A DNA stretch of 64,000 bases from Chiridota heheva (Eukaryota; Echinodermata; Holothuroidea; Apodida; Chiridotidae). The first letter of the stretch is position 1. Every line of letters starts with the position of its first letter. Where the stretch lies: positions 1,246,001 through 1,310,000 of the forward strand of contig JAIGNY010001690.1 in the NCBI GenBank assembly GCA_020152595.1, written 5' to 3'. The notes beneath the pieces are model-generated. The model was not told the DNA's origin. It did not search any database and was given only the letters and a program-made list of their open reading frames with translations. Below, piece by piece: positions 10,021 to 38,300 of this stretch. A program made the translations under genes and the position numbers.

Positions 10021-10133
10021 CATTTTACTGTAATATCAGACCCACAGATTTTAAAGGATTAAATAGGTGCTCAGACTTGACTATCCTATCTGATAGGAGA
10101 GCAATACAACAGAACTGTGAGCAAACTATGGAT

Positions 10134-15568: not shown

Positions 15569-15606
15569 AATCCAACTTGGTGATGGCATGGGCTTGTTTT
15601 TGTTTA

Positions 15607-16249: not shown

Positions 16250-16295
16250 GTGAGATATTATTTGCATTTTTATTCTCAGTCATATATTAGTTTTT

Positions 16296-16332
16296 AGTTC
16301 CACCCACTACACAAAGTGTAATGAGTGGAACT
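16296..16332 (+). repeat. Terminal-type hairpin after TTTTT (AGTTCCACCCACT head)
   Basis: AGTTCCACCCACTACAC pairs with GTGTAATGAGTGGAACT in inverted form (mismatched near the loop), immediately after TTTTT. It starts 46 bp after a PEX3 donor. Comparable T5-plus-hairpin heads occur at 24006, 29630 and 36747. The downstream body is short or decayed, ending in a 28-bp minisatellite at 16557. Confidence 0.65.
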
Positions 16333-16556
16333 TATCAAATGGTACGTGAGCTCCCATATGTGCCTGTGCATTGGTTTGCTTTAAAATGCATCTCCTAGGT
16401 TTTAACAGTTTTGCTTTTAAAATTCTGGCTCAAACGAGATTTTTGTATACTTTATATAGCTTGCATTTTGCTAAGAGATATTCTATGTATTTTTTTAATT
16501 AAAGCTCACGAAAGATTTACAAAAGTATTAGATTTTATGTTTAATGGTGCTAAAAA

Positions 16557-16830
16557 AAAGCTAGCTGTAGATATAATGCTAAAAATAGCTAGCTGTAGAC
16601 ATAATGCTAAAAATAGCTAGCTGTAGACATAATGCTAAAAATAGCTAGCTGTAGACATAATGCTAAAAATAGCTAGCTGTAGACATAATGCTAAAAAATG
16701 CTAGAATAATGCTAAAAATAGCTAGCTGTAGACATAATGCTAAAAATAGCTAGCTGTTGACATAATGCTAAAAATCATGCTCCAGGTACCAGCTGTAGAC
16801 ATAATGACTAGCTGTAGACATAATGCTAAG
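16557..16830. repeat. Minisatellite, 28-bp unit, about 9 copies
   Basis: Units of TAGCTAGCTGTAGACATAAT plus GCTAAAAA. Each holds the palindrome TAGCTA/GCTAGC. The last units are degenerate. Confidence 0.93.
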
Positions 16831-17123
16831 AATAGCATTCAGACATTATCCTCATGCATTCATGACAGGTCCTCATGCATTGTTTCATGCATTCAGCACA
16901 TGTGTTTCCTATTAGCAATACGGTATTTACTACTTTTATTAAACATATCTAAAAGCTGGTATAATATCATTAATTTGTGTAGTAATATCTTTTATAAGAC
17001 CAAAATTATGCAATCTCATTAAAATTTGAGTGAATTACGGGATGATAAAAAAATCTATATCGGAGACTTGAAGCCATGTGAAATTTTTGGGACGTGACTT
17101 TGTGTTATGTCAGGGAGTTCGCA

Positions 17124-18188
17124 TTAAACATAACTCTACCAGGGCTTTAAAAAAAGCAAGCCCATTTTTTGTAACTTTTTTTAATATGCATTTTTGACAA
17201 CTTTCATTTTCTTTCTTTACAAGTTTGGTTGGAATAGAGGCTAAGATATTTATCTTTTGAGTAATGAAAGCCAAGTTATTGGACAAAAATATGCAAATTC
17301 AGCAATTTTTGGCAAAATTTGGTCAACAAATGGCCAATCTTTGCAGAAGGAAGTATAACTTCTTGTCAATATTGAAAACAGAAATTTGTGTTTACATATT
17401 TAGATTCTTTATGAAATTTCCTTTCAATGATGCTAATTTATAATTCTTAGAAAGAAAGGAAAGATAAAAAATACCAAAAATGATTATAGTCAAAAGACCC
17501 TAAAAGCTGCAGCCAAAAAATTATTACGCAGTGGTCACGGTGAGACTCGAACCTGGAGTGCTCGAGCGTGCTAGCCGAGTACATTTCCTCTGCACCACAT
17601 AGTCATTCAAATTGAAGAGGTGAAATATAATTCTTATAGGAAAATTTTTAAATAGAGGGGGTATGCCATTATTTATATATCACATGAAAGGAAATTGCAA
17701 GCACTTTTGAATGGCGGTTCAATGAAGCATGTGTGATGTACGGTTTGGGTACACAATTTTTTTGAAGAAAAAAAAAACGGTCAAAAATGGCAGAAATTTA
17801 TGAAATTTTAAAGAAATTTTTCCAGAATTAAAAATTGCATGAAGGGATTATAAAAATTAGACCAGAAACCAATACTTAGGACTTGCATGTTTGATTTTGA
17901 TGCAAAAATGTGATCTTTAAGTTACTGTAAGATTTAAAAAGTTAAAAAAACATTTTTTGTGAATTTTTTAGCAATTTTTGAATTTTACCCTTTTTCAAGG
18001 TACTTTTTCTCAAAATTCTGTAATATGACCCCTATAAAAAAGTTACATTTTGTGAAAGAAATATCTGAGTACTTTAAAATGATACCAAGATTACTCCTAT
18101 AGGACTTTAGTGAAGTCCCGATTTTATTTTTAGAAAAAGGTGGTTTGAAAACAGCAATACTATCGCCACGTGGTAGAGTAAAAGTTAA
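17124..18188. mobile_element. M6 long inverted-repeat element at a TTAA site
   Basis: Its ends read TTAAACATAACTCTACCAG and ACGTGGTAGAGTAAAAGTTAA. The right ~70 bp match the two short M6 copies at 23.5-23.8 kb (AATACTATCGCCACGTGGTA against AATATCGCTGCGTGGTAGAG). It is 1,065 bp and would be a longer parent of those short copies. I see no long ORF. It contains a tRNA-like segment (17531-17604). Confidence 0.55.
17531..17604 (-). tRNA. tRNA-like sequence (pseudo-tRNA or SINE head)
   Basis: On the minus strand, TGTGGTGCAGAGGAAATGTA resembles an A-box region, and CCAGGTTCGAGTCTCACCG contains a canonical B box (GGTTCGAGTC). The segment is 74 bp, the right size for a tRNA, but the acceptor-stem pairing is poor and I could not assign an anticodon. 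It is probably a tRNA-derived relic carried in the M6 long element. Confidence 0.4.
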
Positions 18189-19449
18189 GAAATCGTTGAA
18201 TCTTATATGTGGCCAGAAATAAAGACAATATCTCAAGCTTTCTAATGATACCTGAGTTTTAAGTTTTCAATGATGTTTTTCCAGAAAAAAGTTGAAAAGC
18301 TTTTTCATTTTTAAGCATATTTATTCAAATGCAATTGCAAAAATTCAAACTTTGTTTGAAAGGGAATTGTTTTATCTTTAAAATGAGATATAATTCTTCA
18401 CGATGCCCTATTTACACGGCAAGAGGCTCGTTTGTGAATTGACATATGAACTAAAGCTAGCATTCCCGTATTTCGAGGGCAATTTGTATTAATTTGCCTT
18501 TTCTAATTGCACGTAATGTTAAGTATAACTTACTTATATTAAGGTAAGCTTAATTAAATGATTTATCAGCTGGTTTTAGAGTAATTTTAAGCCGATGTCC
18601 GCTTGGATTTCAGCATGCATGTTGCAGTACTGTACAGTACCTTCATAACGTAACTAATGTAGTGTAGTGTACACAAATGAATACACTGTGTGTAGTCAGG
18701 TAGTACTACACTAGCAGTACTGTAGCATCCAACTGCAATCTGTAGTGTAGGCCTACTTGTTTAAGTAACTATTTATCTTAAGTTATTGTGTATGGACTAT
18801 CTTGAATTTAAATTCTTAAATATTGCTGAAAGGAAATTTACTTTTACTTAGCCTAGATCAAGATTTTTTTTTGTAATAAAAAAGCACAATCTCTGATGCT
18901 GTTTTAAGCTTCACCGAGGCCCAGGGCCCATTTTTTTCTTTTTTTTTGTGAGGGGGAGAGTGGGAGTGGGGAGTTATTAATTCTTGATCAATTGAGCATG
19001 GCTGGTACACTGTACGTACCATCATAAATTTTCTTGATCTATGCGTATGAATTGTTAAATACTATCATTGCTGAAAGAAAATTAACTTTTGATTAAATAA
19101 ACTTTGTTTTTCAACAATCACTGTGCAGCTATTTAGGGCCTATCTTTTTTTAGGAGAGTTGAACTTTTCTTGATGAAATGAACTGAACATTATTTCAGGT
19201 AGGCCTACGCTGCTACTGTGTTGTTGTTTTTTTAACTAAAAAATTTCATCACAATCACTTGCAGCCACCTTGGCCTAATGCCTGTTATTTATTTATGTTT
19301 TCATGCAAGTGCCAGAGTTTTTTTTTATGGATCTACCAAACATTGCAAGTATACTGCTATTGCATGTGTACCATCATGAATTGTCTTGATCTTTGTGTAT
19401 ATTTTGTTTTTGCTGAGAGAAACTTAACTTTTGATTAAATAAAATAAAA
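18189..19449. other. PEX3 intron sequence, no gene seen
   Basis: Short-range repetition only: TGTAGTGTAGTGTAC-type words at 18655-18760, and a diverged duplication of a block with TTGATCTATGCGTATGAATT/TTGATCTTTGTGTATATTTT near 19035 and 19388. Confidence 0.6.
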
Positions 19450-20232
19450 CGTTTTTTTGAGGTACAGTCATTGGGTAAAATAAATAACTTTCAGTCTTAG
19501 GGGTACAGTCATTGGGTTAAATTAATAACTTTCAGTCTGAGGGGTACAGTCATAGGGTTAAATGAATAACTTTTAGTCTGAGGGGTACAGTCATTGGGTT
19601 AAATGAGTAAAACTTTTAGTCCAAGGGGTACAGTCATTGACTTAAATGAGTAACTTTTAGTCTGAGGGGTACAGTCATTAGGTTTGATAAGTAATTTTCA
19701 GTCTGAGGGGTACAGTCATTGGGTTAAATGAGTAACTTTCAGTCTCAGGGATACAGTCATTGAGTTAAATGAGTAACTTTCTGTCTGAGGGGTATAGTCA
19801 TTTGGTTAAATAAGTAACTTTTGGTCTGAGGGGTACAGTCATTGGGTTAAATGAGTAACTTTCTGTCTGAGGGGTACAGTCATTGGGTTAAATGAGTAAC
19901 TTTTAGTCTGAGGGGTACAGTCATTGGGTTAAATGAGTAACTTTCAGTGTGAGGGGTACAGTCATTGGGTTAAATGAGTAACTTTTAGTCTGAGGGGTAC
20001 AGTCATTGGGTTAAATGAGTAACTTTCAGTCTGAGGGGTACAGTCATTGGGTTAAATGAGTAACTTTTAGTCTGAGGGGTACAGTCATTGGGTTAAATGA
20101 GTAACTTTCAGTGTGAGGGGTACAGTCATTGGGTTAAATGAGTAACTTTTAGTCTGAGGGGTACAGTCATTGGGTTAAATGAGTAACTTTTTCAGTCTGG
20201 GTTAAATGAGTAACTTTTAGTCTGAGGGGTTA
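19450..20232. repeat. Minisatellite, 41-bp unit, about 19 copies
   Basis: Units of GAGGGGTACAGTCATTGGGT plus TAAATGAGTAACTTTTAGTCT. TTTTAGTCTGAG and TTTCAGTCTGAG variants alternate in places, suggesting a higher-order ~82-bp period in the later half. It is about 680 bp upstream of a PEX3 exon. Confidence 0.95.
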
Positions 20233-20909
20233 TGCAAAGCTCTAGTTAACTTTGCATGGATATCATCTTAATAAATAAATGTGGGCATTTGGAGACAACT
20301 TGTCATGTCTGAAATAACTGTAAATCATTTCTGCAAGCGCTTTCCTTTTGTGAATAAATTTTTGCTTAATTGGTTTAAATTGTGTTAAAGTGGTGAAATT
20401 GATAATTCGTGATAAACACTGATTTTCTTGAATTGTTTATCATGCATGTAGATTAACGACTGGTGGCAAGTCTAGAAGCAATTGTCAAAATTGGTCAAAA
20501 GTGACCTTTGTGTCACTTTATGTTTTCACACTTCATGAAGCTAAATTCTCCAAATAGCTCAGATTTTCTAAATTGGTTTTAATATTTGTATATCATTTTT
20601 TGTATGGTTTAAGAATTACCCATGATATCATTTGGCTTATCACAGGAATTTTTTGGGAAAAGAAGCTATTGAAAATAAAGCTTTTCTTGTTTGTCAAGTG
20701 AAATGATGAATAATATAACCAGGAAAAACACAAACTGTCTTTGTTACCCTTATTTATACATCCATCAAGTTTGCCTGAATGTTTATAGGTTTTCTAAGTA
20801 ATTGCCTCATTTGCCTCCTACTCTCCACTCACTGTGCATTGCTTACTTTGATAGCTTCCAAGTTTTGTTAGTCAGTCACTGAGAAATGAATGTTTATGTT
20901 TTATTACAG

Positions 20910-21006
20910 CCCTCACAGCACCAAGCTTGCTCTTGCTAAGGTTATTCCATTGGTCAATGGACAGATGAAAGTACTCTGCAGCGATACGCCCAACCACTTT
21001 ATTCAG
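20910..21006 (+). CDS. PEX3: PEX3 internal exon
   Basis: This 97-nt exon has acceptor ttattacag (ending 20909) and donor gtcagt. It reads (S)[18 protein letters not shown] then [14 protein letters not shown], ending in phase 0. It aligns closely with human [20 protein letters not shown] then SETPSHFVQ (about residues 318-346). This is the best-conserved C-terminal segment and supports a functional rather than decayed gene. Confidence 0.95.
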
Positions 21007-22176
21007 GTCAGTTTCTGTGCAACAGACTTCTTATTCATTTTCAGGATTTGTTTTTTAAAATGGACTAGTCCAGATTACCAAACTCCATTATTTCATCAAG
21101 GAGTTTTAAACTTAAAGATGAGAGAAAAAAATCTTAATCAAAAAGTAACTTGATTTGATTGTGAAAATGAAAATAGTCCTTGTACCTTATTTGAAAATTT
21201 GGACCAGATTCTTCCAATTTGTATGTCAGAATAGATTAGTTGAGATTAATAAATTTCCATTATTTCATCAAGAAATCAGAAAATTTTGAAGTTGAAAATG
21301 AGAGAAAAAATATCTTAGTCATAAAGTAACTTTTTACTTTATTTTCATTTTCACATTTTCTTTTAAAATTTGGAAAATATTCTTCAAAATTTGCATTTTA
21401 AATTTAAAATGGATTCTTTAAAATTTGTATTTTAAATCAAATGGACTAGTCGAGATGACTAAATTTCCATTATTTCATCGAGATACCAGCAAATTTTGAA
21501 GTTGAAAAGGAAAGAGTAAATTTGTTGGTCATAAAGTAACTTTGCAATGGAAATCGCCCTTGGACTTTGTTTTGAGAATTTTGACCAAATTTGTAAATTT
21601 TTATTTCAAAATGGACTACTGTAGATCACTGAACTTTGAAAATAGGAAATAAATATATGAATCATAATGTAACTTTTAAATTTGATTGTGCATCGTGAAC
21701 CTTATGTTTGTAATTTGGATCAGTCCATTCTTGCAAAGCACACATTGAATGTAGGGACTGTTATCTAATGTGAACTTAAAAATAAAGACATGCAACAGCT
21801 GCAGTGACTTCAAAGAACTTCTCACTATCAGGACATTTAAAACAAGTCAAAACAAGATGTCTGTTTAGTTAAGTTTGCACTGAGTTTTATAAGTTTTTGA
21901 AATTTGTTTAGAAATGTGTAGAAATGTTTGTGGATATTTTTTTTTTTCTTCTCACTTTATTTACAACCATTCAGTATAGATGTAGTATATTTTTGATAAA
22001 TGATGCAAGTTTGTCTAAACAACAAAATAGAAATAAACATTTCAGATAATAGCTGATATGTACATCAAAAGATAAAGTTGAGGAACTAAACAAGTTTTAA
22101 AAGTTTTAAACACGATGTCCCAATGTAATCAGTTTTGATGAAATTTTTGCCAGGTCCATAATTGTTGTTGTATTGT
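21007..22176. other. PEX3 intron with diverged ~170-bp tandem repeats
   Basis: CCATTATTTCATCAAG/GAGA, then TTGAAGTTGAAAATGAGAGA and CATAAAGTAACTTT recur near 21083, 21260 and 21465, giving three or four decayed units. No coding evidence. Confidence 0.6.
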
Positions 22177-22705
22177 TTAAGGATTAGTTCAGTGGTCAAG
22201 CAAGTCCATCTGACATAAAAGCGTGACTTAAAAATAAACAAAATGTTAAAGATAGCATTCATTATTCTGTTACGAATATATTCAAGTTTAAAGATTAGTC
22301 TCATTTTTGTAGAAGCGGCTGCAATCAGACTAGTTATGACAATACAACATACAATATGGCAATCAAACTAGTTATGATAATACAACTTGACGTTCCTCAA
22401 AAAAGTTTGATGTATTCTGTTATATTTTGTCCCGAAAATGTCAGGAAATCTTTAAAAATAGAATCAAGTAAGGTAATTCTAATTTACACTTGAAGAAAGT
22501 TGGAAGAATTTTTTAATTATTTTTAAGATACATTAACAATTGTTAACAAAAAGAAGTAGACTTTCTACATCAGTCATTTCTACACAACTGAGACAGAACT
22601 TTTAACTTTGAACAGAATTAGATATTGATTGTTGTTTTTTCACCATGTTGTTCCTATAAAAGTCCTTCATATAAGATTATCTTTCTTGACCACCCATCTT
22701 TGATC
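22177..22705. mobile_element. M1 element whose right end runs into a minisatellite
   Basis: It starts TTAAGGATTAGTTCAGTGGT. It has the family's middle block and right arm (TTTCTACACAACTGAGACAG, then CATATAAGATTATCTTTCTT). Where other copies read CTTGACCACTGAACTAATCC, this copy reads CTTGACCACC and passes into the 13-bp CTTGACCACCGGT minisatellite, so the last ~15 bp of the right terminus are missing or transformed. Confidence 0.7.
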
Positions 22706-23145
22706 TTAACTGCCGATCTTGACGGCCAGTCTTGACCACCGGTCTTGACCACCGGTCTTGACCACCGGTCTTGACCACCGGTCTTGACCACCGGTCTTGA
22801 CCACCTTATCTTGACCACCTTATCTTGACCACCTTATCTTGACCACCAATCTTAACCACCTTATCTTGACCACCGATCTTGACCACCGGTTTTGACCACC
22901 AGTCTTGGCCACCGGTCTTGGCCACCGGTCTTGGTCACCGGTCTTGGCCACCGGTTTTGACCACCAGTCTTGGCCACCGGTCTTGGTCACCGGTCTTGGC
23001 CACCGGTCTTGACCACCGGTCTTGACCACCGGTCTTGACCACCGGTCTTGACCACCGGTCTTGACCACCTTATCTTGACCACCTTATCTTGACCACCAAT
23101 CTTAACCACCTTATCTTGACCACCGATCTTGACCACCGACCTTGA
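22706..23145. repeat. Minisatellite, 13-bp unit, about 32 copies
   Basis: Units of CTTGACCACCGGT with variants CTTGACCACCTTAT, CTTGGCCACCGGT and CTTGGTCACCGGT. A block of CTTAT variants occurs twice (about 22806-22870 and 23066-23120), so part of the array was duplicated as a ~260-bp segment. The minus-strand frame TGGQDRWSRPVV is an artefact. Confidence 0.95.
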
Positions 23146-23460
23146 ACAATTAGCTGATGTTGCTTCTGGGCTTCATTACATCTTACAGGAATATTCCAGT
23201 GAATTTTCATTGATTATTTATTTAGAGGACTGTTAAAGAAACAAATTGGTAAACAAACCATGCTAGTATCTTATTTTGTTTAGGGGGTACAGCATTTGAA
23301 AGATTTAACAAATATGTTGAAAAGTGAACATGAAGTGTAAAGTGTGATGTCATAATTGCGGATCCAAAATAATGTTTATTTCGTTAAAAATAAATTGGTC
23401 TGTTTCTGAAGTATTGGAAACATTTTTTTGTTTAATTATTGAGATGTGGTAAAACATGCA

Positions 23461-23576
23461 CTTTTTACTCTACCAGCACTTTCTTGAAAACGTGCTAGGG
23501 AGGCAGGGTCAAAGATGGGGCTTCCAAAACCGCGATAATATTGCTGCGTGGTAGAGTAAGGGTTAAGCACAGGCTG
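23461..23576. mobile_element. M6 short element, copy 1
   Basis: A roughly 110-bp palindromic element: CTTTTTACTCTACCAGCACT on the left and GCGTGGTAGAGTAAGGGTTAA on the right, with CCGCGATAATATTGCTGCG near the right end. A second copy lies 120 bp downstream in the same orientation. Confidence 0.7.
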
Positions 23577-23694
23577 ATTATTGAAGGGTCCTTTGTCTTC
23601 CGAGCAGCAGAGTCAGTCTTGTTCCTCTTCAGTGGGCCACCCACCGGGACCATGCTGCATATATTTTTGAGTTGGCGCATTTGTCGCAGGTTGA

Positions 23695-23804
23695 TTAACC
23701 CTTACTCTACCAGCACTTTCTTGAAAATGCTTTTGGGAGGCGGGGTCGAAGACGGAGCACCCAAAACGGCAATAATATCGCTGCGTGGTAGAGTAAGGGT
23801 TTAA
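23695..23804. mobile_element. M6 short element, copy 2
   Basis: 110 bp from TTAACCCTTACTCTACCAGC to GTGGTAGAGTAAGGGTTTAA, with perfect 16-bp terminal repeats inside TTAA. It is about 90% alike to copy 1 by eye. The CCCTTACT start resembles the CCC-type ends of piggyBac-group elements. Confidence 0.75.
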
Positions 23805-24005
23805 AGACCCTGCTAAGCTCATGTACCTTACACTCAAAATGAAAGAAAAATACATTTTTATTTTATAGAAATACAAAAGAATTTTCAGGATCTAAGATTA
23901 TGACATAACACTTTACACTACAAGGTCAACACACTGGTGAAAATGTTGAAACACACTTTTACACTGAATAAGATATGAACATGATCTTTAACCAATTTCA
24001 TTTTT

Positions 24006-25110
24006 AGCTCGACTATTCGAAGAGTAGTAGAGCTGTTGGTGTCGGGTTAGAGTTTTGGTTAAAGTTTTGGTTAAAGTTTTCATTACTGAATTATGAATGG
24101 TGTACATTCATGTGAGTTGGCATAGGACATGGGTACTGATCAAATGAGCATGATTTGGGGTTGTGTGTGCATACTAATTAGCTTATTTGCATAACAATGA
24201 AAATATTTGTCAGGTTAAAGTTTTGGTTTAAGTTTTTGGTTAAAAGTTTTCATAACTTATGAATGGTGTACATTCATGTGACTTGGCATAGGGGTACTGT
24301 TCAAGTGAGCATGATTAGGGGTTGTGTGGGGGACTAATTTAGCTTATTTGGATATCAATGAAAATATTTGTGTTTATGCTATCTCTTAAAATAAAATGGA
24401 TGTGGGGATTTTGTTTGCAAATGATCAGATATGTGAAGAGCATTGTCTACTCTTAATGGTGAGGTGAAGTGTGCATATTAATTAGGTAATATTTGCATAA
24501 GAATAGACTTGTATAAAATGTTTAACATGAGCGAAGAACTTAAGTTATGAATGGTGTACATCCATGTAGCTTGGCATGGGTAGAGGACATAGGTGCTGTT
24601 CAAATAAGCATGATTGGGTGCATACTAATTAGCTTATTTGCATAACAATAAAAATATTTTTATCTATGATATGTGTTAAATTAAAGCAGGAGTGGGATTT
24701 TGTTTACACAAATGATTATATATGTGAAGAGCATCATCTATAGTGAGGTGTAATGTGCATATTAATTAGGTTATTTGCATAACAGACTCATACAAAATAG
24801 TTAACCTGAGATAAAAACTTGGTACAGTGGTAGAGGGCATTGGTACTGTTCAGTTGAGCATGATTGGTGGGTTTATGTGTGCATACTAATTAGCTTATTT
24901 GCATAGCAATGAAAATATTTGTATATGTGGTATCTCTTGAATTAAAGTGGGTGTGGTGATTTTGCTTAAACAAATGATCATACAGTATGTGTGAAGAGCA
25001 TTGTTTACACTTATGGGTGAGGTATAGTGTGCATATTAATTAGGTTATTTGCATAGAAATAGACTTTGCTGCAAATTGTTTGACCTGAGATCAAAAATAT
25101 TTCTTCTTGA
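24006..25110 (+). repeat. Hairpin-headed element with ~280-bp AT-rich tandem units
   Basis: TTTTT is followed by a hairpin, AGCTCGACTATTCGAAGAGT to AGTAGAGCT (24006-24034). About four diverged units follow. Each has two half-units ending in ACTAATTAGCTTATTTGCAT or ATTAATTAGGTTATTTGCAT and GAATGGTGTACATTCATGTG. Recognisable TATTTGCAT sites occur near 24180, 24493, 24630, 24764, 24890 and 25041. It is non-coding and lies in the last PEX3 intron. Confidence 0.65.
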
Positions 25111-26093
25111 AAATATTTAATCTGAGATCAAAAACTAACTTCACATTTCTAGTTTTGTTATGATATTGACATGATATGAATCAAAATGTTTGTCTTACCA
25201 TGAATAAAAAAGCAAACAATCAGTTCCCAGCCTCCCGAAAAGTCACTTATTTTCTTCTGTGTATATTCAGCCCACTTCGATTCATGAATATATAATGAGC
25301 TGAAACATGCTGTTTTTCAAACTTGATTACAGCTTTGTTGCGACAAAAAACCTTTCCAATACATGAAATTTAGGCAGATAAAGGGTTGAAAATACTATCC
25401 ATTAACTTTTGAAGAATAATTCGAACAAAAAATAATGAAAATCGGAGGGATTTATAACGATTTCATATTTTAAAAAATGGTGGCAAAAATCGTGGTCACA
25501 ACCATATTTCCAGTCTTGGGCCCATACGATTTTTACATATGTGATAAAAAAATTCCTTTTCTATCTAAATCTATGAAAATAAACATGAAAATCAGAGGAA
25601 TCCGGTCAGGGGTTTGCAAGGTTTGAACCTATTTCCACTGACCATTATTCCCTCAACAACTTTGCTTGCTACCATTGAACTAAAGGTGTTATAGTATAAA
25701 GACTGCTAGCTTTTACATGTTTTCTGAGTTACTGCATAGATGAGGTAACCTTATTTTTTTTTTTGTCTTAAAATATCTTGGAAAAAAGATATTTTAAAGC
25801 TTGTAGTAAAATGTGAAAATTAACAAAGCAAATGAAAATGCAAGTGCATCTTTTAAAACTCAAGTGAATTGAAATCATCTGCCCCTGCTCTCCTATATAC
25901 TTCCCGCCCCTACTACCCTATATACTTCCCGCCCCTACTACCCTATATACTTACCTCCACTAGCCCATTCTCTATACTAGCTTTAAATAGTCAAGCATAC
26001 TGTTCTTCCAACAGTTCTTGTAAATAGTCTTCTACTATGTATGTGAAAATAGATTTGATCTTTAATTGAATCTTTCCTTCCCTTTGTTAACAG
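25111..26093. other. PEX3 last-intron sequence, no gene
   Basis: AT-rich apart from a short CTACTACCCTATATACTTCC repeat at 25890-25960 (three copies of about 29 bp) and the tRNA-like relic at 25606-25695. Confidence 0.6.
25606..25695 (-). tRNA. tRNA-like sequence (decayed)
   Basis: On the minus strand it reads ACCTTTAGTTCAATGGTAGC (A-box-like), a longer-than-usual middle, and ATAGGTTCAAACCTTGCAAA (B-box-like GGTTCAAACC). The middle could hold a long variable arm, but stems are not convincingly paired. A pseudogene or old SINE head in the last PEX3 intron is likelier than a working tRNA gene. Confidence 0.4.
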
Positions 26094-26189
26094 GAGCTGC
26101 TTTTGATGCAGTGTGTGAAAGACTTTGCCGCCAATGTGTATGAAGCTTTTAGCCAAGTATCTCCATTAAATGGTAACTCCAGACCGTAA
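26094..26189 (+). CDS. PEX3: PEX3 terminal exon with stop codon
   Basis: This final 96-nt coding exon follows acceptor cctttgttaacag (ending 26093). It encodes [20 protein letters not shown] then [11 protein letters not shown] and stops at TAA 26187-26189. Human PEX3 ends [20 protein letters not shown] then TPQQLEK, so the shared core is nearly identical and only the tail differs. With it the seven exons sum to 678 nt (225 residues plus stop). A long TA tract begins about 280 bp after the stop, so it may lie in the 3' UTR. I found no canonical AATAAA in the next ~500 bp. Confidence 0.95.
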
Positions 26190-26466
26190 CACGGGTCATC
26201 TCACGATCATTGACACATCTTCCAAGAGAACTAATGTCAGTGGAATGGACATTCAAAAGAATGGCTGAATGATGCAGACTAACACAGCATTCACTGATCG
26301 ATGATGGGGATATACTGAAAGTAGGAGATAAAGATTGCTGAATGAAGTTGATTGTTCCTGGAGCATTAATTGATAACGAATCAAATATGTGATTGCAAGT
26401 CCTTATTGAAATGATAAAAATAGCAATTCTGGGATTCAATTTAGTTATGTAATGGACGCTGACATC

Positions 26467-26673
<207 letters not shown>

Positions 26674-26892
26674 CTGAGGCAATAACTTTTACAACACCAA
26701 ATATAAATCATTAAGATGCTTGATTATTCTAAACAGGGAGTTCATTCTGGGTATTGTGATGTTAGGGCATTGTAAGCAGGGGCGTAAATACACAGGGGTC
26801 AATTTTTGAGACTTGTTGGTAAAATTTGAGATTAGTCGGTAAATTTGGTATCAGGTCGGTAAAGATATTTATTTTGATTAATAACTCTTTTA

Positions 26893-29232
26893 GATCGTTA
26901 ACCACCTCGCTGCCTCTTTCAGCAACATCTCGTCCTTGGCCAACTACCCCAATGCTTTCAAAGCCAAAAAAGCTCACGATGCAACCCAGAGTATCACCTT
27001 TCCCTCCGACAACACCAAGAGCTATAACACCCTCTCACCCTATCTGAATTAAATCAAGCCATCCATGATGCTGGCTGCACCTCCAGGGCCCAGATAACAT
27101 TCCCTACCAATTTCTGAAACACCTCTTTAACAAGGCCATCACTACTCTACTCACCATCCTGAACCACATCTGGTCCTCACACTCCTTTCTCCCTATCTGG
27201 AGGACAGCTATTGTCACCCCTGTCCCCAAACCAGGAAATGACAGTACTGATCCCTCCAGCTATCACCCCATCTCCCTAACCTGCTGTCTCTGTAAAATTA
27301 TGAAAAGGATCATTAACCAGAGACTAAACTGGTTCCTTGAGACCAAAGACCAAAAGAATTTGCTCCCCTCACCAAAGCGGCTTCGGAAATGTTGCAATAC
27401 CTTGGACCAGTTATTTACACTCAACATCGCTATCTGGGAATCCTTTGCAAAAAAGGAACACTTCATTGCCATTTTTCCCGACCTCGAGAAAGCTTTTGAC
27501 ACTACTTGGAAATATGGCATTATCTGCAAACTTCACACCATCGGCCTAAGAGGCCACCTCCCCACCTTTATTTAAAACTTCCTCTCACCCAGGCAGTTCC
27601 AAGTTCGTATTGGTCACACCCTCTCCAAGCCCTATCCCCAAGAAGAGGGCGTCCCCAAGGCAGCATTCTCTCTCCCACTCTCTTCAACCTCAGTATTAAC
27701 AACATAGCAGACAACCTTGGCCCAACATCAACATCAAACATGCCCTGCAAGCCTGGTGCAACAACAATGGTTTAAATTCTTGAAAGACAAGTGGATGACT
27801 TTACCATCTTCTACATCCTCTGAACCCAAGCTTTACTGTTGTCTATGGCAAAAATAGGCTCACAACTCTTTCAATTCAAAATCCAAAGCCTTCATGTTGA
27901 AGCCAACAAACCCCTTCCTGGCTGCAGCGCATTCACCAATACCCAGAACCCTGTTTACAACCTCATTAGGTGCCTCAATTTAATTCTATCCCCCTCCCTT
28001 TAGCTTACGCATCAAATCAGACCTTCTCCATCTTGGCATCGATCCCACCATTCTCAGCACTTTCTTCTGGCCCACTTTTCCTCCCTGAACCACCCCTTTT
28101 CTACTATCCACCTGGACCTCTCCACTTATCACAAAAACCAAACCCACCCTAACCTCTTCATCAACCTCCACAACCAAATAAAAGACCAACTCTCAAACTA
28201 TACCTCCATCTATACTGATGGCTCCAACGAAGGCGACAAGACAGCTGCTGCTGCCGTCATCCAAGACATCACCCTCAGTAGCAGGCTTCCCGACTACTCA
28301 ATCATCTTCTCGGCCGAGGCTAAGGCCATCCTCCTCGCCCTCAACGTTATTGAATACTCTCCACTCAGCCACTTTGCCATCTTCTACAACTCCATGGCTG
28401 TCCTTACTTCATTACTCAATGTTAAATGGGATAACCCCACATCTCACCTCATCCTCCATAAATTCCTTTTGCCCCCCCCCCCCCTCCTCCCCCATCCTTT
28501 CGTAGGAAACATATTCTTTTCTTCTGGATACCCAGCCATGTTGGCATCCCTGGCAATGACAGGGCTGATGCAGCTGCTAAGCTTGCCTTCACCCTTTCCC
28601 CTACCCCTTTTCCCAAAACCATCTCTGACATCAAACCGCTTATCACTTCCCTTGTTCGTGGCTGCTGGCAAACCTTATGGGACTCTCAAATTGATAACAA
28701 ACTCCACATCATCCAGCCCACCATTCCGATCAAACACACCATTCACAACCTATCCCGTGTCGACAACGTCCACATTTCCCGCCTTAGAATAGGTCACACT
28801 CAACTCACTCACTCCCACCTCCTTATTGGCTCCCCCCTCCTCCACCCCTCTGCAACAATTGCCATTGCACCCTCACAGTCCATCACATTCTCCTTGCTTG
28901 TCCCCTATACCACCTTCCCAGAGCTTCGCTTGCTCCCCACAACTCAATAGCGGAGCTCTTCCAGAAAAAACTTGTTGGATAAAATGATCTCCTTTCTTCA
29001 TCATGCTTCCCTCTACAACCATATTTAGTCCTCCTTCCCCACCCCCTCTCTCTTTACATTAGTTTTTCACCCATACACGTCCTCTCTTGATCCCAGCTTT
29101 CTGGCTTTTAGTTCTAGTGTTTTTCTGAATCTCCCCTTTTTACTCTCCTTCCTGCCTCTGGAATGATCTAACCTTTCAGGCACAATTTGACCTTTGCTGT
29201 TGTGGTGCCGCTAAACTCTCATCAAACAAACA
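26893..29232 (+). mobile_element. 5'-truncated LINE with RT and RNase H remnants and a 10-bp target duplication
   Basis: The element is flanked by exact copies of AACTCTTTTA (26883-26892 and 29233-29242), the target-site duplication expected of LINE integration. In several frames it shows SYHPISLTCCLCKIMKRIIN, QSGFG, an EKAFDTTWKYG block (palm motif A), PQGSILSPTLFNLSINNI (motif B) and a degenerate VDDFTIFYI (motif C). RNase H follows, with YTDGSNEGDKTAAAAVI (from 28211), SAEAKAILLALNVI and a frameshifted IPGNDRADAAAK-type block. The 3' end is a (CAAA)n-like tail. Having RNase H after RT points to the I/ingi-like groups. Multiple stops and shifts make it inactive. Confidence 0.88.
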
Positions 29233-29629
29233 AACTCTTTTACAAGGAGGCAGTTTTTTTTCTTCTTTGAATGGGATGCTAATTTGAAGTTGTTGGGAAA
29301 TCTTATACTTAAACCCCTCCCCCAGTCAAAATGGCCTACTGATGCCACTGGTTGTAACGCTAGTTGGTTGTAATTGCTTGTTAAAAGACAAGTAGAGGTG
29401 AGGGCATTTTTTGGTGAAGCTTTTAAATATTCATTGACCTGTGTTGCCTCCTGAAGCAATAAAATGTTATTGTTTATGAATGTTAGATAACTACTTGGTG
29501 TAAATATGGGTGTTAGAGAAGATTTGTAGCCCTCTATGTGAGTCGAAAAGCTATGCTGAATATTTTAGAGTCTCTAGAAAATTGCGTCCTCACTTTTTGG
29601 TGTATTGCCCCATTAAGTTTTCAGTTTTT

Positions 29630-32600
29630 GGTTCCGATGCTAATAGCTTAAGGAACCTATGCAGTCATGCTGGCGTGTGTATGTATGTGGGTCTGTGACA
29701 GCAAGCTTGTAAGCGCGATATCTCAAGAAGGATACACCGGATTCATGTCATATGTGGAACACAGATATCCCATGGTCTGTAGATGTGCCAATTGTTTTTG
29801 ATGGTGATGTCATGTATATTAATGAGTAGGCGGGGCTTAATGTAAATATCGTGAAATGCTCATATTTTTACAACCGTATGTCTGCTTTGTTTCATGTTGA
29901 GTGTAATTATGCTGTTAACTAGTGTGTACATATTCATGGTACAAAAATGTTAAATTTCATTAATATGCATAGTGGGCGGGGCTTAACATGATTTTGTTGA
30001 AAAGAGCTTGTAAGCACGGTATTTCAAGAATGGTAAACTGGATTTATGTCATATGTGGTATACAGATAGCCCAAGGTCTGTAGATGTGCCCTATTGTTTT
30101 TGGTAGTGATATCATGCATATCAATAAGTAGGCGGATTTAATGTACAAATCTTGAAATACTGTTATTTTGACAATCACATGTCTGATTTGTTTCATACTC
30201 AGTATAATTATGTTGTTAGCCAGTATGTATGTGTTTATTGTATAAAATTGTTTAATATCATTAATATACATATTAGGTGGGCATAATGTGATTTAGCTGA
30301 AAAGAGCTTGTAAGTGCAATATCTGAAGATTGATATTGTTTTTATGTTATTATGTGGTACACAGATAGTCCATGGTCTGTAGATGTGCCTTATCAATTTT
30401 GGTGGTGATGTCATGCATATTAATAAGTAGGCAGGGCTTAATTTTGAAATCTTCAAATGCTTATATTTTAACAATTACCTCCAGTTTGTTTGATATGTGG
30501 TATAATATGTTGTTAGCTGGTATGAACAACGTTGAATTTCATTAACATGCATAGTGAGCGGGGCTTAATATGGATTTGCTGAAAAGCACTTGTACACTCA
30601 AGGACAATACATTGGATACAGGTCACATGTGGTACACAGATAATCCATTGTCCATTTGTGTGCTCTGTTGATGGTGATGTCTTGCATATCATTGGGGGGA
30701 AGAGGGGGGAGGGAAGGTAATGTGAAAGACAATCTTGAAAAAATGATGAATTTATTGCAACTGTGTGTCTGTTCGCTTATCAATCTTACATGTTAAAACT
30801 GTCAGCTATTGTGCTTGTACAGTATAAGCCTCCTTTTTCTCCAAAATAGTTTCTATAATATAAATATTAGGTCAAAATTGGTTCTACAATCATTCAATCA
30901 GTAATAGGCATGAAAATAAATCATAATGAGTTGAGTGACATTCCATAGCCATTCAGAAAGACCAAATAATGATAACTCATATGTCTTGTTAAAAATGGGG
31001 CTATGATGAAGGTTGTTGAAGAGCTGTGACATAGCACTATCCTAAGTGAAGTAATTCATTTTATTTCAAAAAAAAACCCGGGACAAATAAAAGTGGTGGT
31101 TTTATGCCATAAAGCCCTGGGGATATCCTTTGGTGGAAATAGTTTTACATGGACTGTCTGTGGGTGGGTTATTCAGGAAGGTCATATGATTCTGTATTTA
31201 AAGAAATATTCCTATAGTTTTTCATGTAATGCATGAAAATGACAATTTAAACTGAAACTTTTCTTTTGTGGTATTGATGTTCCCTTTATATTCATTTCAT
31301 ATATTAACCAGAACCAAAAGGTTTTGTGGTTCGATGCTTTTTTCACAAGCTTATTGATTTGAAAAATTTGCAGTACAAGTAACTGTTATGTTATTGCATC
31401 ATGAAATATTTGTTCCATGATATTTATTCATAAGCCACATCCACCATGCAGATCAATAAAAATGTTGACAACATTAGCATTTGCACAATAATTAACAACA
31501 TTGCCATAGCACGTATGATGCAAAAAAGGTTGCTCATTTTTATTCTATATCAAGAATTTGTCAGTAATCCCTACCTTAGCCAACTACTCATTAATATTTA
31601 TGACATCACTACCACAATAATGAAACAGACCATGACCCACTGTGTACCTGATATAGCATAAATTTGGTATATAGTTCATGAGATACAGTATGGTGTTTAC
31701 ATCATTTAGCACTTCACATTAAGCCATGCCACCATGCATACTAATGACATCTGCTGATAACATAAGCATGTACACAATAACCAACAAATTTATGCCCAAT
31801 ACGACACAAAACAGATATACAGTTGCTCATTTATTACTTTTTTCTCTCAATATTTTCACTTAAGCCCTGTCCGCTTAATAATATGCATGATATCACAACA
31901 AACAATACAAAATAGGGCACATCTAAAAACCATGGGTTATCTGTGTACCAAATATGAGTTTACTGTTCTTGAGATACTGTGTTTACAAGCTCTTTTCAAC
32001 AAAACCATATTAAGCCCCACCCACTATGCATATTAATGAAATTCAACGTTTTTACATCAGGAACATGTACTTAAAATCAAAACACACTCATCATTAACCA
32101 ATGAATATCTCACACAGATAGAGTAACTGAAGGAAGGTGATTGATGTCATAAAGTTATTAGGCACTAACAAACGAAACCGTTATGTTAACTAAGAAATGG
32201 CCCCTTGACCCATATAAAAACCACAGTTCCATGAAGGATCAGAAAAGATTATTCACATGAAAATTGTAAAGATGATAAATGGGTTCTCAGATAATGAGAG
32301 TATGTAAACTGACAAGGAATGGCAGAATGTTTATAACAGAAACTTTAAAATTAAATAGTTTGTTGTATATTTTCCCAGGGGTAATTTTGGAGTTTTGGAG
32401 GACAGAGTTCAGAGCTTTCAAATGTATAAGTTTATCAGTGAAGCCAATGACCCTGACCATTAATATGCATAGTGGGCAGGGCTTAACATGATTTTGTTGA
32501 ATAGGGCTTGTGTGCATGGTATCTCAAGAACGGTAAGCATAGTATCTCCAGAATGGTAAACTGGATTCATGTCAAATTTTGTACACAGATAGCCCATGGT

Positions 32601-33055
32601 CTGCAGATGTGACCTATTATTTTTGGTGGTAATGTCATGCATATTAATGAGGAGGCGGGGCGTAATAATACAAATAATAAAGCTCTATGGACTATGTTGT
32701 ACACAGATAGTCCATGGTCTGTAGAAGTGCCCTATTGTTTTGGTGATGTCATACATATTAATTAGTAGGCAGGGCTTAATGTGAAAATCTTGAAATGCTC
32801 ATATTATAACATTCACATGTCTGTTTTCTTTCATATTATGATTTGAGCTAGTTTGTACATTTTCCATTTAATAAAATCATTGAATTTTATTAATATGCAT
32901 AGTGGGCGGGGCTTAATATGATTTTTTGAAAGAGCTTGTAAACACGATATCTCAAATATTTCATAATATGCACTGATATAACAGTTAATACAAAATCAAA
33001 CGGCATAAAAAAAAAAGCATCGGAACCACAAAACCCTTTTGGTTCTGGTTTCAAA
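29630..33055. repeat. Large element with GGTTCCGATGC ends and ~300-bp tandem units
   Basis: It begins with a TTTTT-preceded hairpin (GGTTCCGATGC... GGAACC, 29630-29657) and ends GCATCGGAACCACAAAACCC at 33017-33036. It holds ~300-bp units with GGTACACAGATAGCCCATGG, TGTCATGCATATTAATGAGT, GGCGGGGCTTAATGT and TTAATATGCATAGTGGGCGG. Units are direct from 29700 to 30800, inverted from about 31440 to 32070 and direct again from 32455 to 33000. A reversed terminus (AGAACCAAAAGGTTTTGTGG, about 31312) marks the switch, so it is a composite of at least two insertions. Confidence 0.65.
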
Positions 33056-33814
33056 TACTGCATGGACGGTGAACAGTTTCTCTCTCAGGAAGGAGGTGTT
33101 CTATTTGAAGTGTTGGCATCTAAAATAGGACCATCTGTTTCTTCTAAAAAATGAATGAAACTCAAAGAGTTGTATTATTTTTTTACAGGAAACACTCAGA
33201 TTTTGGTTGCTCCACTTGCATTTGACCTGAAACCCTATTCATACAAAAACTGTTTGATGTTATATACTGTTTGATCTTATACTGTTTTCATAGCTTTTGG
33301 TGCAGCATTTTGTAGGTGTATTTGAGAAGACATGTGATTTTGAATACTTTCAGTACTGGTAGTTTAAAGGTTATCCTGTGATGCAAGTTTTGTTACCTAA
33401 CACAACCTCATTGTAATGAAGTTGCAATTCCGACATGTAACTTGAAATGTGTAAAAGTGAATCGTAACTTCCTATGTATTCTGTCACAATGTCTGAAGTG
33501 ACGAAACACTTGATTGCCTCACTTATGCCAATCAAATATAAATTTCCTGAGTGTTATCTTCGTCGCTATGCACTAAGAATGATGATATTTTCAGAAAAGG
33601 GGTCATACCATAAAATCCAGACTATTGTTTTGATTTTTTTATATTTTGCCATCTATTTCATAAAAAAATCATCTGAGAGCTTATAAGCAAATTTTAATCA
33701 ACTTTTGTATTTTTGTAGATTGATAAGTTGGGAATGATTTAATAATCCAGTTATCAAATCTGTTGTGCAAATCTAAACCTTTCAAACATGGATATTCATT
33801 CTGCTCTACATTGT

Positions 33815-34622
33815 ACTTCCCGCTCAGCCACTTTGCCATCTTCTCAGACTCCAAGTCTGTCCTTACTTCTTTACTCAATCTTAAGTGAGATAACTCCACG
33901 TCCCACCACCTCCTCCATAACTCCTTTCGCCCCCCTCTGCAGGAAAATTATTTTCTTCTGGATACCCAGCAATGTTGGCATCCCTGGCAATGACAGAGCT
34001 GATGCAGCCGCTAAACTTGCCCTCAACCTCCTCCTGCCCCCTTTCCCAAAACCCTTTCTGACATCAAACCGCTTATCGCTTCCCTTGTTCGTGACCGCTG
34101 GCAAACCTCATGGGACTCAAAAATTGATAACAAACTCCACATCATACAGCCCACCATCCACAATCTCTCCCGTGTCGACAACGTCCACATTACCTGCCTT
34201 AGAATAGGTCACACCCTCCTCAATCAGTCACACCTCCTTATTTGCTCCCCCAACCCTCTGCAACAATTGCCATTGCACTCTCACAGTCCACCACGTCCTC
34301 CTTGCCTGCCCCCTGTACAACCTTCCCAGAGCTTCCCTCGCACCCCACAACTCAATAGCCGAGCTCTTCCAGAAAAACCCTCCTGATAAAATTATCTCCT
34401 TCCTTCATCATGCTTCCCTCTACAACCATATTTAGTCCTCCTCTCCCACCCCCTCTCTCTACTTTTGCCACCCATGCACTTCCTCTCTCGATCCTGGCTT
34501 TTAGCCCCCGTGTTTCTCTTAGTCTCCCCCTATTTTCTTTTCTTCCTACTTCTGGAATATTCTAACCTCCCAGGCACAATTTGACCCTAGCTGTCGCGGT
34601 GCTGTTAAGCCCTCAAACAAAC
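33815..34622 (+). mobile_element. Second copy of the RNase H LINE, 5'-truncated
   Basis: It begins within RNase H (CTCAGCCACTTTGCCATCTT, as in the copy at 28363) and reads FFWIPSNVGIPGNDRADAAA with the family's DRADAAAKLA motif intact. It runs through the C-terminal region to the same 3' UTR and a CAAACAAAC tail. No clear target duplication was found. A TTAA-site inverted-repeat element (34635-35197) begins only about 12 bp after its tail. Confidence 0.85.
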
Positions 34623-34634
34623 GTAAAATATAAT

Positions 34635-35197
34635 TTAAAGGATTAGTTCAGGGGTCGGCAAGTCCATCGTACATAAACCAGGAACTCAAAAGAAACTACT
34701 TCAATATCTTATTCGGTTAAGGAGATATTCAAGTTTAAATTGATGTCTTACCTGTAGAAGTGACTGGAATAGTAAGTCTACGTTAGAAGATTGGCACCGT
34801 CATCCTCACATTCTTAATAATTGTTAACGTATTTTGAAGAAAATTTATTTCACATTTTTACTATTTGAATTAGTTTTCCTCAAGCTTTCTTCAGGTGGTA
34901 AATTATAATTACCCATACAAGATTCTTTTTTACTACTTTCCTGACATTTAATGGTTTTGAAGCCACTAAATAGCAGGACAAAATATGATAGAATACATCA
35001 AGTCAGAGGAATCTAAAGCGGTGACATTATAACAGTCCGGACTTCAATCGATTCAACAAAAATGACACCAACTTTAAACTTAAATATCTCCTAATCGGGA
35101 AAAAGATTTTGTAATGCTTTATTCACCATTTTGTTTCTTTTGAAGAAGTCCTCTTTCATATAGGATGGACTTCTTGACCACTGAACTAATCCTTTAA
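34635..35197. mobile_element. M1 element, single-unit ends (best full copy)
   Basis: It runs from TTAAAGGATTAGTTCAGG to CTGAACTAATCCTTTAA, 563 bp with TTAA on both sides. The arms are inverted over about 150 bp each with mismatches, and the AT-rich centre is non-coding. The terminal unit is present once per side, so this copy shows the basic form of the family. Confidence 0.82.
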
Positions 35198-35473
35198 AGG
35201 TCTATGTAGAAATTTGTTTTGGTGGGGGAGAAGGGGGAGGGAGGGGACGAACAAACAAACCCTCTTTTGTTGAGAAAGTGGCTTTTTCAAATCCAGAAGA
35301 AGAATAAACACCTTGAATTTCAAAGTTTGTTGCTCTTTTATACGAAAAAACGAACACTTTCAAATTCCTGTCTATGGGCCTCTTACATATAGTCATACGT
35401 AGTCTAAATCTTGATTTTCGCTATAGAATACAAAATCCACCTGGAAATTTGCACATAATATTAAGTCATAAAG

Positions 35474-35541
35474 TATTATTTTATGATTGGAAGTATTTGG
35501 CAAACCTATGTTTGCCAAATACTTCCAATCATAAAATAATA
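35474..35541. repeat. Perfect 32-bp inverted repeat with 4-bp loop
   Basis: 35474-35505 (TATTATTTTATGATTGGAAG onwards to GGCAAAC) is exactly complementary to 35510-35541, with loop CTAT. A transcript would fold into an uninterrupted 32-bp hairpin. There are no mismatches or bulges of the kind usual in miRNA precursors. Confidence 0.92.
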
Positions 35542-35699
35542 GTGATAATAGAAGTTGATTTTGTTTACCAAGGGTTTCACTTGAACGAACTTATTGTGAA
35601 AAGTATTACATGTTTTTTAGCTAATATGAACAGATGTGCAAGTTTGCATTACGGTAACTAAGTCAATCTTGTAACAGTAAACATGCTGAATTTTATGAC

Positions 35700-35935
35700 T
35701 TAAAAGGAGCACTAGACTGAAAAGTAAGGGCACACAATTTTTGTGAATTTTACAGATATATTATCCACAACAGATCGATAAATGCATGTCTCGGTAGCCC
35801 GCAGACAACAGGAGGGCAAAGGTCTCATGAATATTCATATTATCCAGAAAATTACTACTGTTGCGGGTTAGATAAGCATTTAATTCTTGGGGTACCCCCT
35901 TAAGATACGCACTAGTCGGTCTAGTGCTCCTTTAA
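35700..35935. mobile_element. M3 inverted-repeat element at a TTAA site
   Basis: It is 236 bp with ends TTAAAAGGAGCACTAGACTG and CGGTCTAGTGCTCCTTTAA, giving a 17-bp terminal inverted repeat with one mismatch between TTAA copies. It is non-coding. Only one copy is seen in the window. Confidence 0.78.
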
Positions 35936-36746
35936 TAAATCAAATGTATATAGAAAGAGATTTTTTTAACAGCTTGTACATTTTGGTGATAAACAATTTT
36001 GTTTTTACCTGTAGAAATGTAAAAGGTGTGATTTATTACAAATCAAGAAGAGTTGAAAAATAAACAAAAGCTTTGAAATAAATCATATTGCTTTGCGTTT
36101 TTACTTTATAACCACTTCTGTGAAACTAAGTAGGTAAGAGTTCTAAAATAGCAACTCCCGGAAAAGCCGCACTCTCTGTATTACAATAATTATTTGAAGA
36201 AAAAAATGATTATGGGGAAGCTGTGAAATATTTCTGGAAGCATGGCCTTTTTTACATACATACCCATTTGGCCCACCAGTCACTCCATTTTGCCCACCAC
36301 TTTTCCTGAAATTGTGGTACTGGTTGTCCATGCTGCATATTTTACACAAGCATAGGTGTAGGAACCAGTGGACACTGGGGGAACGTGTCCCCCATCCCAC
36401 TTTTCCGAAAAATTGTCCCATTTGAAAATGAGTGCCCTTCAATTATTGTCCCAACATTAGGACACTAGCGACTTTTGTCAGTCCCATGTACGGGAGGAAT
36501 GTGGCCCCATTGGAAAAGTGCCCCTTTCTAAAAATGAAGTGACCCTTTTACTTTGTTGTTTTTGGCTCACTTATTCTATCTACAGTTTTGGATGGAGGCA
36601 TATGACTCGAAAAGTGCACTTTGAGAGGTCATCTCCCCCTCCCCTCCCCCTCCCCTCCCCACCAACTTTCCAAAAGCTTCCTACACCCCTGTACACTAGG
36701 GCCAAACAACCAAGATGAAATGTAAATACGGTTCATTAGCATTTTT

Positions 36747-38300
36747 AGTTCCGATGCAATCAGCACCCGGAACCTATCCGGTCCGCTTGTTGTGCGTGTG
36801 TATGTATACGTGTGTTATGCCTAGCTTGTAAACACAATATCTCAAGACCGGTACATTGGATTCATGTCATATGTGGTACACAGATAGCCCATGGTCCAAA
36901 GATGTGCCCTATTGTTTTTGGTAATAATGACATACATATTAATGAGTAGGCGGAGCTTAATGTAAAACAAATCAAATGCTCATATTTCAACAACCGTTCG
37001 TACGTTGTGTTTCGTATTTGGCATAGTAATGTTGTTAGGTAGTGTCCACATGCTCATGGTGAAAAAAGGTTGAATCTAATCAATAGGCATAGTGGGCGGG
37101 GCTGAATGTGTTTTTGCTAAATATAGCTCGTAAACACAAAATTTCCAGAACGACACATTGTGTTTATGTCATATATGGTACACAGATAGCCCATAGTCTG
37201 TAGATGTACCCAGTATTGTTTTGGGTGGAGATGTCATGCATATTAATGAGTAGGCGGGGCTAAATGTACATTTTTGAAATGGTCATTTTAACAATTACAT
37301 GTCTGTTTTGTTTCATATGTGGACTAGTTATGATGTTAGCCGGTGTGTACATGGTAAAAAACGTTGAATTTCATTAACAAGCAGAGTGGGCGTGGCTTAA
37401 CATTATTTAGCTGATAAAGAACTTGTAAACATATCTAAAGAATGATAAACTGGATTCATGTCATATTTCGTAAACATATAGCACATGGTCTGTGTATGTA
37501 CTCTAATGGTTTTGGTGGTGATGTCATGCATATCAATGAGTAGGCGGGGTTTAATTTAAAAATCGTCAAATAGAATTTTAATAACCATATGTCTGTTTTG
37601 ATTCATACTTGGTAAATTTATGTTTTTTGGTCGTGTATGCATATTCATGTTTAAAATTGTTGAATATCATTAATATACATAATGGGCCTGGCTAAATATG
37701 GTTTTGCTGAATAGAGCTTGTAAACACAGTAGCCGCAGGACAGTACATTGGATACAGGTCATATGTGGTACACAGATAACCCATTGTCCATTTGTGTGCC
37801 CTATTGTTTTTGCTGATGATGTCATGCATATTACTAAGTGGGGAGGGGGAAGGGGCAGCTTAATATAAAGAACATCCTCAAAAAATGATAAATTATAGCG
37901 ACCATATGTCTTTTTGTATCATAGGCCTACTTGTCAGTTATTGTGTGCATGCTTATGTTGACAACAGGTCCTGTCACTAATATTGAATGTGAAAATGTTT
38001 CAAAAAACTTGTAAACATCGCACTCATACCATATGTTGTAAACAGATAAATCATGGTCCGTATACTATACTAGTATGTGACCTATTGTGTTGGTAGTGAT
38101 TTCAGTGGGGCATGGTGTAAAATTCTTCAAACGGTGATAAATGTGCAACCATATGCATGTTTTGCATCATACTTGTAATGTTGTCAAGTTCATGATATGC
38201 ATGACAGGCATAGCTGATTAATATGTGTTTTTTAGCATATTTCAACCAACAATGAAAGGATGCATCGGAACCACCAAACATTTTAGTTTTCTGGTTCATA
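36747..38300 (+). repeat. Second GGTTCCGATGC element with ~300-bp tandem units
   Basis: TTTTT precedes AGTTCCGATGCAATCAGCAC then CCGGAACC (hairpin at 36747-36775). The right end is GCATCGGAACCACC at about 38262. Between them are about four direct units with GTCATGCATATTAATGAGTA, GTAGGCGGGGC and CATAGTGGGCGGGGC, the same family as at 29.6-33.0 kb, without an inverted block. Confidence 0.68.

Follow-up and report, generated by a model that had tools for sequence, protein, structure and literature searches.

Three oligo-T-headed repeat families of Chiridota heheva as probable non-autonomous Helitron2/Helentron transposons

The stretch of DNA analyzed here (64,000 nucleotides, C1630:1246001-1310000, referred to as the window) comes from the genome of the holothurian Chiridota heheva, which comprises 1.1 Gb in 3744 contigs; positions are those of the window unless a contig is named. 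Two exons at approximately 20913-21006 and 26094-26188 encode a PEX3-like C-terminus (PDB chain 3ajb_A, E 1.2e-18). By appearance only, 16130-16250 might be a further exon of this gene, the PEX3 match being limited to the two segments named. Around these exons are four sites at which five T residues precede a hairpin: S1 (16296) upstream of the first exon, S2 (24006) within the intron between the two, and S3 (29630) and S4 (36747) downstream of the second. The original prediction treated the sites as the heads of one class of elements with a shared architecture and unrelated sequences, and left them without a known superfamily. Comparison of their copies and of both ends indicates that they are very probably the 5' ends of three families of non-autonomous Helitron2/Helentron elements (HINEs), S1, S2 and S3=S4, whose parts are collected in Table 1.

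Table 1. Coordinates of the candidate HINEs and their parts in the window (ATIR, asymmetric terminal inverted repeat; TRF, Tandem Repeats Finder)
Feature	Position	Strand	Remarks
S1, 5' part of probable HINE	16291..19446	+	oligo-T and 5' ATIR-hairpin at 16291-16332; 3' end missing in the window copy
28-bp minisatellite in S1	16548..16775	+	expanded in the window copy
S2, probable HINE with both ends	24001..26020	+	two further copies share left and right ends
S2 5' ATIR and 5' hairpin	24006..24034	+	
S2 diverged tandem units	24040..25096	+	
S2 3' ATIR (AATAGTCAAGC), hairpin, terminus ..TTCTTG	25986..26020	+	same end in two other copies
S3, composite with inverted partial copy	29625..33050	+	ATIR pair 29630/33017, 11/11 bases
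S3 tandem units, ~301 bp	29704..30840 (right limit approximate)	+	TRF period 301 over 29704-30528; diverged matches to 30773
Inverted right end of the S3/S4 family	31306..31337	-	95% to 33011-33050 reversed; ..CTGGTT
S3 3' ATIR, hairpin, terminus ..CTGGTT	33017..33050	+	hairpin z -2.06; 5/200 shuffles as good
S4, both ends present	36742..38296	+	ATIR pair 36747/38262, 10/11 bases; 73.7% to S3
S4 3' ATIR, hairpin, terminus ..CTGGTT	38262..38296	+	hairpin weak in this copy, z -1.71; 13/200 shuffles as good

The T-run with a hairpin directly after it is present at all four sites. The DNA fold z-scores at 16296, 24006, 29630 and 36747 are -2.88, -3.20, -2.78 and -3.76, and 2, 1, 2 and 2 of 200 shuffles each, respectively, fold equally well. 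By themselves, T5 and a hairpin are not diagnostic. A fold starts at nucleotide 1-2 after 80 of the 476 T-runs in the window (at least five T, both strands), and in fold energy the four sites rank 1, 5, 6 and 3 among these 80. Rank 4 belongs to 40268, a negative control in which T5 and a hairpin lie inside another repeat: in a genome search with 40230-41430 as query, all 39 other scored copies of that repeat start 10-33 bases to the left of the T5, and hence the hairpin there is internal. No convincing inverted partner was found for 40268. The repeat itself (40230-40850) has 2873 first-look candidates genome-wide.

Two of the four sites belong together, since 29625-30773 and 36742-37914 are 73.7% identical over 1195 columns; S3 and S4 are thus one family, and the supposed lack of sequence relationship is reduced to three families. 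The left termini of S3 and S4 (GGTTCCGATGC and AGTTCCGATGC) reappear inverted at 33017 and 38262, respectively, at distances of 23 and 24 bases from the 3' end. Three right ends of the family, two direct and one inverted at 31306, are alike up to ..CTGGTT and divergent beyond. S3 is described as composite because inverted units lie inside it. The 5' hairpin shows covariation: the stem pair left free in the search pattern is G-C in 79, A-T in 13, G-T in 4, A-C in 2, T-C in 1 and C-C in 1 of the 100 listed left ends (sequences, not independent events), and the 13 A-T pairs compare with 2.55 expected if the two sides were independent.

In S2, the right end is found at 25986 as AATAGTCAAGC-AT-ACTGTTCTTCCAACAGT-TCTTG. 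Within the window, its inverted repeat lies 24 bases inside the 3' end and has a single mismatch among 11 bases. Judged from the window alone this end is weak, such a pair occurring at 14 of 735 T-runs (20 rows of 2205 offset tests), and it becomes firm because two more copies share it. These begin at 104626 and 135437 of the 264 kb obtained by joining the next 200 kb of the contig, with counterparts of the right end at 106863 and 138920 and with more mismatches in the inverted repeat. In the copy at 104626 the hairpin is followed, as in Cg_HINEs, by a GGC/GTCGG microsatellite; this copy is also the one of the three in which the outer stem of the 5' hairpin is lost.

The right end of S1 is absent from the window and the next 200 kb (search with up to 8 mismatches), and the window copy matches those on contigs C580 and C592 only as far as 19446. 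It was recognized from the copies on C580, C592 and C69, which cease matching one another at one shared point, and reads ..ATGGGTTGAACT-ATA-ACATC-ATT/ACT-GATGT-CTAGTT. In these three copies the 3' inverted repeat lies 22 bases inside the 3' end and has 1, 2 or 3 mismatches to the left terminus among 13 bases. With a query beginning 61 bases before the T5, which is thereby at query position 62, 31 of the 39 other scored S1 copies start at 59-65, five at 51-57, and three inside, at 81, 89 and 120. The exact 18-mer of the left end occurs twice in the genome, and 40 of the 1124 first-look candidates were scored. A single empty site is available for this family, as C592 has one S1 copy inserted within another S1 copy. 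Once joined, the flanks of the inserted copy can be aligned with the window, with C580 and C2199, and with the inner copy on C592; the relatives read TTTTTC^AACA, and target duplication is absent at this one S1 site.

The anatomy common to the three families is therefore an inverted copy of the left terminus, 11-13 bp long with 0-3 mismatches, which lies 22-24 bp inside the 3' end and is followed by a hairpin; the 3' termini are ..CTAGTT in S1, ..TTCTTG in S2 and ..CTGGTT in S3/S4. An 11-13 bp inverted repeat at both sides would also be expected of miniature inverted-repeat transposable elements (MITEs) or of other terminal-inverted-repeat DNA transposons that a DDE transposase moves by cut and paste, and DINE-1-like elements were formerly called MITEs (PMC4067079). 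Such an origin is highly unlikely here, given that each of the three families has asymmetric repeats, terminal on the left and internal on the right, and that the one empty site has no duplication. The T-run at one end only, together with tRNA-B-box-like words seen by eye on the minus strand of S1 and S2, might instead suggest short retroposons in reverse orientation, with T5 as the complement of a poly-A tail. This seems extremely improbable, as neither ARAGORN nor Rfam (up to E 1) detected a tRNA in 16000-39000, the opposite terminus is constant and structured in every family, and duplication is again lacking at the one site.

Both kinds of ends recur throughout the genome. The left end of S3/S4 has 2433 exact matches against none in the reversed control, and at up to two mismatches the right ends of S3/S4, S2 and S1 have 4126, 1767 and 805 matches, each against none, and the left end of S2 has 1807 against 3. 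The left-end patterns of S2 and S3 have no matches in viral contigs. Among the ends listed, S3/S4 ends within 7 kb of each other form 10 pairs in the expected order and strand, one in the wrong order and none on opposite strands (100 listed left ends; 48 of 100 listed right ends, those on contigs C1-C124). Twelve of 71 S1 left ends have a partner within 8 kb, none in the wrong order or strand; the sample contained 80 exact right ends, with 20 one-mismatch rows, four short second matches of left ends and the C560 left end (which starts at query 120) dropped. Similarly, S2 gives six pairs, none of them wrong (65 of 100 listed left ends, on contigs up to C938, and 100 right ends). Altogether, 28 left-right pairs among the ends listed for the three families are as expected and one is not. 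The idea that T5 followed by a hairpin arises by chance among the T-runs of an AT-rich genome, the families being unrelated in kind, can draw on the 80 window T-runs with a fold at nucleotide 1-2 and on 40268 as exactly such a false case. Given this ordered pairing, the fixed right ends and the start of most S1 copies at a T-run (31 of 39), we regard it as scarcely credible.

The asymmetric inverted repeats, the two hairpins and the oligo-T flank constitute the published signature of Helitron2/Helentron elements. Bao and Jurka (2013) describe Helitron2 as having a 5' ATIR within 0-2 bp of the 5' terminus, a 3' ATIR at ~20-30 bp from the opposite terminus and a hairpin at each of them, with members that insert after TTTT (PMC3627910). 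Accordingly, the 5' ATIR lies 0-2 bp from the 5' terminus as part of the 5' hairpin in all three families, the 3' ATIR is ~20-30 bp from the 3' end in S1, S2, S3 and S4, and a hairpin lies near the 3' terminus, the single-copy folds being weak for S3 (5/200) and S4 (13/200). Oligo-T is seen to the left of most copies, the left-end search patterns of S3/S4 and S2 having themselves required it. Canonical Helitrons (Helitron1), with 5' TC, 3' CTRR, no 5' hairpin and A/T insertion, were considered and rejected, because the left ends have AG or GG after oligo-T, the right termini are those given above, and a 5' hairpin is present.

The tandem repeats inside, together with the failure to find a coding region, identify the elements as HINEs. 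Of the tandem units of ~280-300 bp originally noted, those of S3 and S4 (~300 bp) and S2 (161 and ~288 bp) were recovered, along with the words TTTGCATA in S2 and ATGCATATTAAT in S3/S4. S1 has none of these and carries the 28-bp minisatellite near its head, where fetched copies show a gap of ~26 bases compared with ~304 bases in the window, and a looser repeat in its body (19016-19101 versus 19368-19443, 77%).

The elements resemble Cg_HINE of Crassostrea gigas and the bivalve Pearl as described by Vojvoda Zeljko et al. (2020), where satellite-like repeats fill HINEs: a 5' subterminal inverted repeat (subTIR) with a complementary repeat, a microsatellite-like stretch, a short satellite-like array, a 3' subTIR with palindrome, no coding region and, probably, an oligo-T target (PMC7492417). 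The likeness is one of described architecture, and the monomers there are mostly 140-180 bp (PMC7492417), whereas the units of S3/S4 measure ~300 bp and those of S2 161/288 bp. With Helitron2 they share a 5' ATIR at the terminus and in the hairpin and may share insertion after TTTT (PMC3627910). With Helentrons, HINEs and DINE-1, they have in common subTIRs, 3' palindromes, tandem repeats, high copy number and, probably, T-rich targets without target-site change (Thomas et al. 2014; PMC4067079). Satellites borne by transposable elements are reviewed in PMC9659126. The three families, presumably new, are of a kind already known, and their assignment is well supported.

In the genome, 11 of 16 RepHel candidates gave Helitron_like_N matches, 10 of the 11 with stops, whereas the 14 control genomes had none. 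Autonomous Helitron2 elements encode RepHel (PMC3627910), unlike any copy with the present ends that we found; for Cg_HINE, likewise, no autonomous partner is identified (PMC7492417). Helentron partners carry an endonuclease domain (PMC4067079), whereas none was found in six frames of one RepHel locus, and so Helentron and Helitron2 are not distinguishable here. The six frames of the RepHel locus on C983 contain PIF1 and DUF6570 pieces only. In the window, Pfam search of 10 of the 49 frames of at least 100 amino acids yielded two reverse transcriptase matches and one RNase H below the cut-off, and no coding region was found inside the elements. On C1031, an S1 left end is followed 6.2 kb on by an S1 right end, a candidate single element only, in which four frames have no Pfam family match at E 0.01.

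Several observations weigh against the assignment. None of the 11 Helitron_like_N loci was found to be a RepHel-coding copy with these ends: at the C983 remnant, 9.7 kb of sequence reaching 4-5 kb to either side contain none of the three end pairs, and at the other 10, for which the flanks cover 1.5 kb, motif matches are at chance level. The right hairpin of S4 is weak (z -1.71; 13 of 200 shuffles as good), and in the 3' hairpin of S2 the pair left free, C-G in 80, C-A in 13, T-A, T-G and C-C in 2 each and C-T in 1, shows no clear covariation. The empty site concerns one copy of one family, with a 7-bp indel in the C592 flank and a TTTCTT run before the element. Finally, the anatomy is weakly selective within the window, as a scan for it with 10-mers at one mismatch finds 76 loci against a mean of 49.8 and a maximum of 63 in 30 shuffles. 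With exact 10-mers the scan gives 10 loci (shuffle mean 3.0, maximum 6). It recovers S3 and S4 at both settings, S2 only at the looser one, and S1 at neither because its right end is absent.

Nevertheless, membership in Helitron2/Helentron answers the question of superfamily, which had been left aside because right ends were not sought; those of S2 (25986), S3 (33017) and S4 (38262) lie inside the window, and that of S1 is absent from it. Both ends are now defined in all three families, and the long coding copies that were also to be looked for were not found. The hairpins are terminal in the compared copies and not internal, and one kind of anatomy, instead of different known superfamilies, appears in all families. 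The proposed common replication mode thus stands as far as one class with the same two-ended anatomy is concerned, the mode itself being deduced from the family.

From this membership, and by analogy, we infer rolling-circle movement in trans. A RepHel protein supplied in trans would nick at oligo-T, and one strand would be displaced while the other is copied, giving a single-stranded intermediate. The 3' ATIR and hairpin would mark the stop, and the strand would be inserted into T-rich DNA without target duplication, the tandem units being presumably passengers or by-products. Bao and Jurka (2013) propose that pairing of the ATIRs opens the 5' hairpin (PMC3627910), and pairing of both ATIRs might act as an end-point switch in the present families as well. 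In FoHeli1, joined ends suggest circles (PMC5148889). Fold predictions for copies of each family, though not for every copy, also pair the inner edge of the 3' ATIR with the very last bases at the 3' end (AACTA/TAGTT, CAAG/CTTG, AACC/GGTT). In a model of this kind the ATIR would be a three-way switch, with the 5' hairpin, the 3' hairpin and end-to-end pairing mutually exclusive. It is doubtful that one RepHel in trans moves all three sequence-unrelated families by reading shape (5' hairpin, ATIR pair, 3' hairpin) over sequence.

With this probable assignment, three families of high-copy repeats in an animal genome of 1.1 Gb are placed among rolling-circle transposons, and it is the finding of the 3' ATIR and hairpin that turns one end read by eye into a firm assignment. 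A genome with thousands of passive copies and only a small number of RepHel remnants, most of them broken, is suitable for asking what the transposase recognizes. No new mechanism is shown.

Two other interpretations of S1 were tried. An end near 18189 in most of the 40 scored rows (query 17250-18450) suggested an element reaching from T5 to TTAA, which was rejected because 17124-18189 is a separate TTAA-bounded repeat of ~1.07 kb (TTAAnCnTnACTCTACC..GGTAGAGTAnnnGTTAA), standing alone at loci L036 and L037. Its TTAA bounds presumably point to piggyBac, and its ends resemble two short window copies at 23465-23564 and 23702-23801. Compared with C580, C592 and C2199, 17712-18505 is extra in the window S1. 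Head-to-tail rolling-circle arrays, at first suggested by spacings of ~1.77 kb on C69 and ~1.9 kb on C2869, are not claimed, because both examined C69 right ends precede the same other sequence and no left end, and no S1 end occurs in the 7.3 kb from C2869. That segment (C2869:6900-14200) is a tandem array with a period of ~1.9 kb and 93-95% identity, and holds the TTAA-bounded repeat. On C2199 (395650-396250) lies a tandem array with a 40-bp period whose units, some of them shorter, comprise the S1 right end and 8 bp of flanking sequence. Immediately before S1 in the window ends a 270-bp tandem duplication (15597-15863 and 15873-16141, 92% identity).

Other repeats are interspersed with these elements. 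A second dispersed family (GGATTAGTTCAGGGGTCAAG..) has many direct and inverted copies, at 3548-3854, 4232-4530, 10133-10453, 22176-22260, 34635-35197, 43727-44149 and 57580-58055. LINE-like remnants of one element occupy 27069-29235, 33814-34622 and 10732-11186 with 80-82% DNA identity, and the first of them has an RVT_1 match at 27069-27575. A nearly perfect palindrome of 68 bp is located at 35474-35541, and its matches to miRNA families are below the gathering scores.

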